This document shows, one piece after another, positions 13,695-16,176 of a DNA stretch of 20,358 nt. The position numbers and the translations under genes were made by a program. Positions within the stretch are counted from its first letter, which is position 1. Each line of letters starts with the position of its first letter. Source of the DNA: a virus; the IMG/VR virus record IMGVR_UViG_3300008217_000127, positions 1-20,358 of that record. The stretch is one strand, 5' to 3'. The notes under the pieces are model-generated. The model did no database searches and was not told the origin of the DNA. It saw only the letters and a list, made by a program, of their open reading frames with translations.

Positions 13695-13882
13695 TAGGCC
13701 GACGGGCCGTCTTTGCTCTGGATGAGGACACGCGAGGCGAACGACTCAGCCGCATCGACTTCGCTGTACACCTTGCCGAACGAACGGTCGAGCATCTGGA
13801 GGAAACTGTTGTTCGCCGCCGACGCCTGGGCCAATCGCTCGCCAGCACTCGCTTCCAGCAACGCCTGAAGGTCAACTGCCAT
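13694..13882 (-). CDS. Small protein, unknown function
   Basis: A 62-residue protein (MAVDLQALLEASAGERLAQA), mostly helical and Ala/Ser-rich. ATG 13882 is preceded by AGGAG with a 7-base spacer and overlaps the protease gene end by 11 bases. It ends in TAG overlapping the next GTG by one base. No motif is recognised. It belongs to the same leftward operon as the protease and the membrane proteins. Confidence 0.65.
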   Translation of the reverse strand: MAVDLQALLEASAGERLAQASAANNSFLQMLDRSFGKVYSEVDAAESFASRVLIQSKDGPSA

Positions 13883-14783
13883 CGTTCTTCTCCTGTTTAG
13901 GCGCGATCTTCACGCGAATGATCGCCCTGAAGTTCTCGCGCCAGTCCTCAAGTGAAAGTAGCCGATCCATCAGCACGTCTGTTTTGCCGACCGGCCCCGG
14001 ATCCCCGCGTGGACCGGGGGGACCGGGAACCGGCGACCGTTTACTAATCGTTGCGACGAGTTCCTCCAGTTCAGCCACTCGTTGTTTCAGTAACTTGATC
14101 TCGCGGGTGCGGTCGATGTCGCCCCAACCGTCCACCAGGGCGACCGGTTTGGCAGCGACCGGCCTGGACAGGACCAGCCGCGGTCTCGCCTCCTTGAGGA
14201 ACGCGATGAGTTCGTCGTGTCGGCAACCGTAGACCCACTCGTCATCAACGCCGTGAGTCATCACGCTGACGAGATGGTCACCGATGAAGATCCCGCCACC
14301 GGAGTTGCCGTTGCGGAATCGACCCACGTTGACACCGAAGACCCAACGGTCGCCGGCCAGGTTGCTGAATCGTTCGCGGTTGGAGTATCTCAACGCCAGG
14401 CGTGTCGGCCCCTTGCCTTCCGGCCACCCGCAGCCGGTGATCGGTCCCGCGGGGACACGCTGCGGCACCGTCACGAAGTGCAGCGGTTTGCCATCGATCT
14501 TGAACAGGCTCAGGTCGCGGGTCTTATCGACGTGGACCCAGCGTGCCTTGCCCTCGGTCTTGTTGTCGTACCCGGTCCATTCGACTCGTTTGCCCTGGCT
14601 GGCGCAGTGGCCGGCGGAAATTCCGTATCCGTCCGCGGTGATGATCGTGCCCGAGCAGCCATCGATCGTCACGCTGGCGCGGACCCACCCGGGATCTGCA
14701 GCCGTCAGCGGACTGACCAGGATCAGCCAGACAGCCAGGTATCGATGACCTTGAAGGCAATTGGCATCAATACGCCCAGGCAC
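13872..14783 (-). CDS. Secreted trypsin-like protease with coiled coil and collagen-like tail
   Basis: About 303 residues if GTG 14783 is used. The start is uncertain: there is no strong SD, and CTG at 14738 or 14726 is also possible. An N-terminal hydrophobic stretch (YLAVWLILVSPLTA) before AAD looks like a signal peptide, so the protein is probably exported. The trypsin-fold triad is visible: H59 in SAGHC, D90 in TRDLSLF and S161 in GNSGGG. Four cysteines could form disulfides. After the protease come a short coiled coil (EIKLLKQRVAELEELVATIS), about four Gly-X-Y triplets (GPPGPRGDPGPVG, near residues 254-266) and a helical C-terminus. Collagen-like stretches trimerise, so a trimeric stalked protease is plausible. 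It overlaps the upstream coiled-coil gene by about 60 bases. The substrate is unknown; it may be a lysis factor or an extracellular/virion protease. Confidence 0.82.
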   Translation of the reverse strand: MPGRIDANCLQGHRYLAVWLILVSPLTAADPGWVRASVTIDGCSGTIITADGYGISAGHCASQGKRVEWTGYDNKTEGKARWVHVDKTRDLSLFKIDGKPLHFVTVPQRVPAGPITGCGWPEGKGPTRLALRYSNRERFSNLAGDRWVFGVNVGRFRNGNSGGGIFIGDHLVSVMTHGVDDEWVYGCRHDELIAFLKEARPRLVLSRPVAAKPVALVDGWGDIDRTREIKLLKQRVAELEELVATISKRSPVPGPPGPRGDPGPVGKTDVLMDRLLSLEDWRENFRAIIRVKIAPKQEKNDGS

Positions 14784-14995
14784 GCGGCGATGGTACGCAG
14801 TTCCGTTCGCAACTTGGTGATCTGCGTGACCAGCGAGTCGCTGCCGTTGCCGCGGTAGATCGTGTTGTCGATCGATGTCAATCGCTGCGAGTGACTTTCG
14901 AGTGTGCGCCATAGCTGCCCGTCGAATCCATCCTGGCCCAGTTCGGACTTGATCCGCTCTTCGATTTTCGTGATGCGAATCGCGAGGTCTTCCAT
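14723..14995 (-). CDS. Coiled-coil protein with C-terminal membrane helix (XhlA-like)
   Basis: A 90-residue protein. The N-terminal 70 residues are heptad-like and charged (LAIRITKIEERIKSEL; LVTQITKLRTELRT). The C-terminus is one hydrophobic helix (IAACLGVLMPIAFKVIDTWL). This layout resembles XhlA-type holin-associated proteins of phages, which sit at the inner membrane with the coiled coil in the cytoplasm; the similarity is in layout, not proven by sequence. ATG 14995 is preceded by AAGGA with a 6-base spacer. It heads the group of small membrane and secreted proteins, which suggests a lysis role. Confidence 0.7.
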   Translation of the reverse strand: MEDLAIRITKIEERIKSELGQDGFDGQLWRTLESHSQRLTSIDNTIYRGNGSDSLVTQITKLRTELRTIAACLGVLMPIAFKVIDTWLSG

Positions 14996-15020: not shown

Positions 15021-15359
15021 TTACTGCTCGCCCATAGTCAATAACAGGGTTTTAACGAGTGTCGGCAGATCTTCGAGTTGCAGACTTACCAGCCAGGGTT
15101 GGTTATCGGCACGGTGCAGCACGATGGCAACCCGGTCCTCTGCGGCGTCGTCAACGGCCCGGGCGACGACACGCTGCACGTTGATCCTGGAGACACGTTT
15201 GACCTCGATCGAGACTCCCGGTTGGCCGACGATGTCGTCGGACTCGTCGGATCGGCCGCAGAACTGCTGGCTCCGGTGCATTTCGACGCCGAAGATCTCT
15301 TCCCAGGCTTTCGCGGCTTCGAGTTCGCCACGCTTACCCTTGTCACGACTATTGATCAT
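15021..15359 (-). CDS. PD-(D/E)XK nuclease, Holliday-junction-resolvase-like
   Basis: A 112-residue protein with a PD-(D/E)XK nuclease core. KRGELEAAKAW has helix residue E12, SDDIVG has metal-binding D42, and VSIEVKR has E52 and K54. The small size, the SRDKGKRGE start and the lysine-rich core resemble archaeal-type Holliday-junction resolvases found in phages. It would cut branched DNA made by recombination or replication. I chose ATG 15359 because GGAG sits 7 bases upstream; the TTG two codons earlier is too close to it. It overlaps the end of the methyltransferase gene by 11 bases and is the last gene of the DNA-metabolism group. Confidence 0.82.
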   Translation of the reverse strand: MINSRDKGKRGELEAAKAWEEIFGVEMHRSQQFCGRSDESDDIVGQPGVSIEVKRVSRINVQRVVARAVDDAAEDRVAIVLHRADNQPWLVSLQLEDLPTLVKTLLLTMGEQ

Positions 15360-16176
15360 TCTCAAACTCCATGATGCAACGGCCCAGGAATTCGACGACC
15401 TGGGGGACTACTGCGTTTCCGAGTGATCTAAGTCTGTCCACCCGCTTGGGAATCCCATGAGCCACTCGACGAATTCCGGTGTCAGACTCCCAGACTCCCT
15501 GCTCGGCTTCACGACGCGACCGAGCAAGCAATTCTCGGGCACGTTCTCCACCGAGCATCCATCCTTGTGATCCCTGCTCGTCGGTGTCGGCCACATCCGC
15601 ACCATATTTCGAAGATCGCTCCGGCGATTTTTCCCACCTGTTGACCCCACGGCGTTCGCTGCCCTCGGAGTGGGCCACGATCCAAACCCTATCTCGTCTG
15701 TGGCGTGCGCCAACACTGGCAGCCGGTACGCAGTGGTACTCGACACGATAGCCGAGCGAGGCCAGGTCTCGGAGAACACCTCCGAAGAGTCCCCCTCGTC
15801 GTCCCATTGCATCAGTTGCTGAGAGTAACCCCGTGACGTTTTCACCCAGTACCCAACGAGGTCGGAGTACCTCGCAAATTCTGCGAAACTCGGGCCATAG
15901 CCATCGTTCATCGTCTTCACCTTCCTGGCGTCCAGCGTTACTGACCGGCTGGCAAGGCCAACCGCCGCAGATCAAGTCTACCGCCCAGTCCTCGACCGGG
16001 TCAGGTGGAAATGTTTTCACGTCATCCCATCGCCGGGCATCCGGCCAATGTTTTGCCAGTACCTTCTGGCAGAACTCGTCCTGCTCCACCTGCCAGGCGA
16101 TCTCGAAGTCGGGCGATGCCATTTGCAAACCCAACTCGAATCCTCCAATTCCTGAGAAGACGCTGCCCACTTTCAC
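15349..16176 (-). CDS. DNA (cytosine-5) methyltransferase
   Basis: A 275-residue enzyme that transfers a methyl group from SAM to C5 of cytosine in DNA. Core motifs appear in order: I (VFSGIGGFELGL, near the N-terminus), IV (GGWPCQP with nucleophile C75), VI (ENV at 112-114), VIII (ARHRRDRVWIVA, 158-169) and X (GNAVVPQ, 253-259). The segment between VIII and X that would hold the target-recognition domain is short (about 85 residues), so it is a compact phage-type enzyme; the target sequence is unknown. GTG 16176 overlaps the upstream stop in GTGA. It may protect phage DNA from host restriction. A second long frame lies wholly inside this gene (see the nested gene). All key residues are present, so it should be active. 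Confidence 0.93.
   Translation of the reverse strand: MKVGSVFSGIGGFELGLQMASPDFEIAWQVEQDEFCQKVLAKHWPDARRWDDVKTFPPDPVEDWAVDLICGGWPCQPVSNAGRQEGEDDERWLWPEFRRICEVLRPRWVLGENVTGLLSATDAMGRRGGLFGGVLRDLASLGYRVEYHCVPAASVGARHRRDRVWIVAHSEGSERRGVNRWEKSPERSSKYGADVADTDEQGSQGWMLGGERARELLARSRREAEQGVWESDTGIRRVAHGIPKRVDRLRSLGNAVVPQVVEFLGRCIMEFENDQ
15408..15911 (-). CDS. Nested +1-frame ORF inside the methyltransferase gene (WLMGFP-type phage protein)
   Basis: A 167-residue frame on the same strand as the methyltransferase, read one base later and lying fully inside it. ATG 15911 is preceded by AGGAAGG with an 8-base spacer, and a GTG lies nine bases further upstream. The product does not look like a random shadow: it has FSETWPRS, TAYRLPVLAH, two WPTP motifs (SWPTPRAAN, MWPTPTSRD) and LTPEFVEWLMGFPSGWTDL near the end. 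From memory, sequences of this pattern are common in phage proteomes, often annotated as part of a cytosine methyltransferase. Here the bases for VEYHCVPAASVGARHRRDR also give the AYRLPVLAHATDE stretch, and those for motif X give the GWTDLDHSETQ end. It could be a genuine overlapping gene, a trans-frame methyltransferase tail, or an ancestral frame that survives by constraint from the other one. Confidence 0.55.
   Translation of the reverse strand: MNDGYGPSFAEFARYSDLVGYWVKTSRGYSQQLMQWDDEGDSSEVFSETWPRSAIVSSTTAYRLPVLAHATDEIGFGSWPTPRAANAVGSTGGKNRRSDLRNMVRMWPTPTSRDHKDGCSVENVPENCLLGRVVKPSRESGSLTPEFVEWLMGFPSGWTDLDHSETQ

Follow-up and report, generated by a model that had tools for sequence, protein, structure and literature searches.

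Is the long open frame inside the methyltransferase gene of this virus a gene in its own right and, if so, what does it add to the enzyme? The window, the whole stretch of 20,358 bases analysed here from an IMG/VR virus record, encodes on its minus strand a C5-cytosine methyltransferase large chain (alpha), and a smaller frame (beta) is read from the same strand within it. The initial annotation of the locus had claimed a 167-codon open frame with its own Shine-Dalgarno (SD) motif and ATG inside the methyltransferase gene, had read from it ETWPRS, TAYRLPVLAH, WPTP twice and VEWLMGFPSGWTDL, and had called motifs VI, VIII and X of the catalytic frame intact. The nested frame was confirmed with its start, and each of those strings is in the translation of beta. 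The catalytic motifs are indeed intact, running from I through VIII to X, but without motif IX. Two points had been missed: motif IX lies in the nested frame and accounts for what that frame does, and M.EcoHK31I is a known precedent of two polypeptides (PMC3404938).

Two reading frames at one locus

The features of the locus are as follows.

15349..16176, minus strand: alpha, C5-cytosine methyltransferase large chain, about 275 aa, motifs I-VIII and X
15408..15911, minus strand: beta, nested small chain, 167 aa plus stop, in the +1 frame of alpha
15920..15926, minus strand: Shine-Dalgarno-like AGGAAGG, 8 nt before the beta ATG at 15911
15673..15711, minus strand: motif VIII in the alpha frame, GARHRRDRVWIVA; the same DNA is read as LAHATDEIGFGSWPTP in beta
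15666..15677, minus strand: WPTP element 1 of beta; T81 and P82 are nearly invariant in the alignment
15582..15593, minus strand: WPTP element 2 of beta
15447..15485, minus strand: motif IX in the beta frame, LTPEFVEWLMGFP, beta residues 143-155, assigned by reciprocal profile scans and a frame tally
15430..15657, minus strand: alpha linker, residues 173-248, read through the beta recognition region and predicted to be disordered
15400..15423, minus strand: motif X (LGNAVVPQ) as read in alpha; the beta stop codon falls within it

Alpha starts with a GTG at 16176, where GTGA overlaps the stop of the upstream gene. Beta likely consists of a target-recognition-like region and motif IX, the recognition role being inferred, and its second WPTP element occurs in up to five copies among homologues. 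The neighbours of alpha and beta in the record are an AAA ATPase, a serine recombinase and a putative phage PDDEXK endonuclease, the last lying directly downstream of alpha (15021-15365, minus strand; weak PF24608 match). In related phage loci, RusA, RuvC or endonuclease VII is found nearby downstream. The window also encodes, at 13872-14912 on the minus strand, a protein that combines a trypsin-like peptidase domain (PF13365) and a collagen-like GPPGPRGDPGP stretch, unusual for a phage contig.

Alpha matches PF00145 over residues 2-199 (E=8e-40) and phrog_363 over its whole length (E=1e-73), and its match to TIGR00675 passes the cut-off of that model. Motifs I, IV (PCQ), VI (ENV) and VIII (RxR), the criterion for a C5-methyltransferase, are met in one frame and follow the order I...VIII...X, with invariant residues at PCQ 73-75 (motif IV), EN 111-112 (motif VI) and R160 and R162 (motif VIII). 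Motif X (GNxVxP; L251 G252 N253) is in the same frame. In the AlphaFold model of alpha, the core has a pLDDT >90 and matches the HaeIII and HhaI methyltransferases, residues 173-209 and 225-248 fall below 50, and the motif X helix is ordered. As predicted by the model, alpha is without a foldable target-recognition region, and the criterion of a recognition domain and motif IX in the catalytic frame is not met. Neither a scan with a single-chain motif IX profile nor a frame tally over loci found motif IX in alpha. A G-I-P string in alpha was considered as a candidate motif IX and rejected, as alpha scores far below beta on the single-chain profile.

Beta matches phrog_1008 (E=5e-23), as do 72 of the 72 sequences in the beta alignment, and no Pfam or NCBIfam model matches beta in a scan of those aligned sequences. 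The alignment ends in a conserved C-terminal block, GxLNPEFVEWLMGFPxGWTDL. The best windows for a profile of this block, LHPRECARVMGYP, LTPRECARLQGYP, ITPREASRLQGFP and LTGREMLRLQGFP, are motif IX of HhaI and of three single-chain plasmid enzymes. When the scan was reversed with a profile built from those four enzymes, LTPEFVEWLMGFP in beta scored 26 versus 7 for the next window, with nothing comparable in alpha. The profiles from the two sides converge on the same 13 residues, and the computation shows that the conserved block of beta is motif IX of C5-methyltransferases. Tallied over loci, motif IX is in the +1 frame in 95, in the alpha frame in three and in the +2 frame in none. No match to beta was found among solved structures in the PDB by sequence or by fold. 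The model of beta alone has a pLDDT of 62 and is confident only for the motif IX helix, the sole part used here. A poor fold might be expected of a small domain detached from its enzyme, but is no evidence in itself.

Coding status of the nested frame

When the alpha codons of the window gene alone were permuted synonymously 20,000 times, 0.9% of the permutations kept the +1 frame free of stops across beta. Across 85 distinct related loci, a single +1 stop was observed versus 277.5 expected under alpha-preserving permutation, and the +2 control frame of the same loci holds 667 stops versus 679 expected. Frequent +1 stops among close homologues, which according to the initial annotation would refute a nested gene, were therefore not borne out. 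As the loci share ancestry, neither the stop counts nor the pair counts that follow are independent events.

Constraint on alpha was measured as third-position differences at alpha-identical four-fold codons in pairs 60-75% identical. Change at these sites is 0.66 before beta, 0.45 from the beta start to motif VIII, 0.25 between motifs VIII and IX, and 0.69 after the beta stop. In a sliding profile, alpha synonymous change runs 0.16, 0.16 and then 0.67, the release falling at the beta stop. Between motifs VIII and IX the third positions of alpha are conserved and the first positions are free, and first-position change relative to third-position change rises from 0.42 to 1.12. The synonymous-constraint comparison proposed by the initial annotation thus finds constraint under beta that is gone after the beta stop, for which the alpha frame is no full explanation.

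Third positions at four-fold codons of beta change at 0.16-0.25 before WPTP and at 0.60 from WPTP to motif IX, a neutral-like rate that leaves no detectable alpha-frame constraint in that interval. As the four-fold sites of beta are free from WPTP to motif IX, the alpha frame there is unconstrained. From these frame-specific rates, the first half of the overlap is dual-coded and the second half is carried by beta alone. Across the second half alpha is likely a linker needing only to stay open, and the disorder predicted by AlphaFold agrees. Dual coding requires more selection on the second frame than the host frame alone accounts for. The constraint and the stop depletion fulfil this, and from them the nested frame is very likely a real coding gene; its translated product is inferred.

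How beta is started is less uniform. SD motifs precede 19% of open beta-frame ATG or GTG codons versus about 7% in control frames, and an SD-led ATG or GTG start is present in only 49 of the 85 loci. No conserved beta start codon was found across the loci; the starts form clusters, one at the position seen in the window and others 28-42 or about 90-100 codons upstream of it. Conservation of the beta frame and synonymous constraint on alpha both begin upstream of motif VIII.

Distribution, rearranged loci and known systems

Viral contigs and bacterial genomes were surveyed with a DNA pattern for the motif IX block that is blind to alpha. At least 240 stretches were recovered, and alpha is in the -1 frame in 228 of the 240: 215 with the alpha motifs and motif X both in -1, and 13 further with alpha in -1. 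The 215 loci uphold the earlier suggestion that phage proteins with the nested pattern arise when motif VIII-to-X DNA is read in +1. When 50 viral loci were fetched by alpha alone, nearly all had a beta match in +1, apart from truncated or frameshifted contigs. Record titles include Bacillota, Actinomycetota, Pseudomonadota, Bacteroidota, Planctomycetota, Verrucomicrobiota, cyanobacteria, Chloroflexota, Spirochaetota, Elusimicrobiota and others; the nested-beta design recurs in phages and bacterial genomes across many bacterial phyla. Annotation of beta in deposited genomes is haphazard. Both genes are annotated in Arcticfreeze and Shelly (the Shelly beta under the note 'g55 internal gene'), phiKX2 and Mwe-JY08 have all or part of beta annotated without alpha, most records annotate alpha only, and Modragons has neither. 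No description of a family-wide nested beta was found in the literature searched, the original 1995 EcoHK31I paper being outside that search.

In a few loci the blocks have changed frame. In L342, L332, L098 and L103 the IX block shares its frame with motif X and the two follow the canonical order (for example, LNPDWVEWLMGFPVGWT...LVALGNAVVPQ in L342), and in the first three both lie in the alpha frame. The WPTP region stays in +1 in these loci where their extent suffices, which is fully visible in L342 and L098. In Gordonia phage Jumbo (L107) and in L232, alpha ends after motif VIII, and WPTP, IX and X are all in beta, which remains open while the alpha frame is full of stops. Rearranged loci with IX and X in one frame directly show the nature of the nested block. 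The first four loci may be evolutionary intermediates between split and single-chain enzymes.

Other loci are irregular in different ways. In a viral contig (L085, 1222-3354), an HNH-type homing endonuclease-like insertion interrupts the alpha frame, with motif VIII on both sides (SAAALGAPHIRDRVFIVA twice), reminiscent of ShiLan elements (PMC11855218). In Komagataeibacter phage phiKX2 (L108, about 1870-2250), the beta frame runs on past beta into a protein with an HNH-like zinc motif, and the alpha frame has no stop across that stretch before motif X. This is an apparent out-of-frame HNH insertion inside the methyltransferase that gives a further overlapping reading frame. The alpha of Mycobacterium phage Modragons (L356) seems frameshifted, with its C-terminal half in another frame, the beta motif IX intact and deposited genes on the opposite strand over alpha; it could be a decaying copy or a recombinant. 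In L040 (1080-2060), alpha and beta switch frame together near 1850, as from a single indel, which is likely a sequencing error or decay rather than a new arrangement.

Among characterized enzymes, M.EcoHK31I consists of two polypeptides: the large chain bears motifs I-VIII and X, and motif IX is confined to the small one (PMC3404938). Its target is YGGCCR, and the gene for its small chain likewise overlaps that of the large chain in a different frame. The two-chain layout itself is therefore already known and not categorically new. The window has the same division, a large chain with I-VIII and X and a small chain with IX, and by analogy resembles the M.EcoHK31I type, on motif layout only and without sequence comparison. 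Unlike M.EcoHK31I as described, the recognition region of alpha is unconstrained and predicted to be disordered, and the recognition-like region is in beta. The literature places the recognition domain of M.EcoHK31I in the large chain (PMC3404938), which counts against the assignment to beta made here; the constraint data suggest re-examining that placement. No EcoHK31I-like enzyme was present among four plasmid enzymes examined (three Escherichia, one Acinetobacter); all are single-chain, and as controls they have motif IX in frame and a +1 frame full of stops.

M.AquI is likewise a natural split into a catalytic chain and an IX-bearing chain, and has motif X in the small chain (PMC3404938). 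Motif X in the window is in alpha, unlike in M.AquI, which is resembled in this respect only by L107 and L232. M.HhaI, M.HaeIII and other single-chain enzymes share the core fold and motif order of alpha, but have the target-recognition domain and motif IX in the same frame. The label of phrog_1008, 'DNA methyltransferase', is silent on an overlapping chain with motif IX only. ShiLan-type out-of-frame HNH insertions in phage methylases (PMC11855218) also place a second protein in another frame of the gene and give a disordered in-frame reading; however, those are mobile endonucleases found in some methylases, whereas beta is a conserved part of the enzyme.

A probable two-chain enzyme and its alternatives

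Taken together, a single stretch of DNA at this locus likely encodes both chains of a two-chain C5-cytosine DNA methyltransferase, with complex formation and methylation inferred. Of the three possibilities raised by the initial annotation, an overlapping gene is the one supported.

The alternative that survives best, though unlikely, is its second possibility, a programmed +1 frameshift after motif VIII. This would yield an alpha-beta fusion (I-VIII, recognition region and IX) beside the full, X-bearing alpha. For it, the +1 frame is often open far upstream of any conserved start, and the position of the beta start differs between loci. Against it, conservation and constraint extend upstream of motif VIII, a region that a post-VIII fusion would not translate in +1; the enrichment of SD-led starts is confined to the beta frame; and a two-polypeptide precedent is known (PMC3404938). 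Internal initiation is favoured because beta conservation begins before motif VIII.

Very unlikely is that beta is a real overlapping protein with some other role, such as a regulator, an inhibitor or a partner of another protein. Its lack of a solved relative and its poor fold alone would fit such a role. However, beta carries motif IX exactly where alpha lacks it, IX and X occur together and in order in rearranged loci, and the WPTP and IX region occupies the expected place of the recognition domain.

All but excluded is a shadow frame without a product, in which WPTP-like and VEWLMG-like strings would be imposed on +1 by base composition and the conserved residues of alpha: both frames do look family-like on shared DNA (motif VIII and WPTP; GIPxRVDRL and GFPxGWTDL), but the constraint sits in the beta frame and stops are all but absent, on which grounds the idea was rejected in general, beta stays open in L107 and L232 where alpha is riddled with stops, and the same IX block moves to other frames together with X. 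The third possibility of the initial annotation, misread methyltransferase DNA, is refuted with it as a general account.

Under the two-chain reading, alpha, read straight through, would supply motifs I-VIII, the core for SAM binding and catalysis, as well as the motif X helix at its C-terminus. Beta would start at its own ribosome-binding site within alpha, in the +1 frame, and would supply the small domain, made up of a variable recognition region with WPTP and, after it, motif IX. Target choice in single-chain enzymes falls to the region from motif VIII to motif IX, and that region is organised by motif IX. Alpha cannot provide either part, because its frame there is an open linker to motif X. 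Together, alpha and beta are expected to form the whole enzyme, which would methylate phage DNA. Computation shows the frames, motif assignment, constraint, conservation and alpha fold; translation of beta from its own start, alpha-beta binding, methylation and a specificity set by beta are inferred, with no expression or biochemical data. The poor fold of beta, the unconserved position of its start and the restriction of SD-led starts to part of the loci count against the reading.

A bolder reading, toward which we lean only slightly, is that many phage 'orphan' C5-methyltransferases annotated as single proteins belong to one ancient, obligate two-chain class in which the specificity chain is nested, half of the overlap being dual-coded and half carried by beta alone, and in which specificity evolves by remodelling of beta while alpha is passively read through. 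C5-methyltransferases of phages and prophages are counted, cloned and given specificities as single proteins; if the two-chain reading is true, a large class of them is two-chain, and most annotations, as well as Pfam and NCBIfam, lack the part expected to read the DNA sequence. Under the bolder reading, codon optimisation of such enzymes would remove beta and leave them inactive. Synthetic recoded genes would fail for a cause nobody would look for. The loci also form a large natural set of same-strand dual-coding genes in many bacterial phyla and phages, and their internal control, constraint that switches off at the beta stop, together with the frame reassignments of motif IX, makes them a good system for the origin and resolution of overlapping genes.
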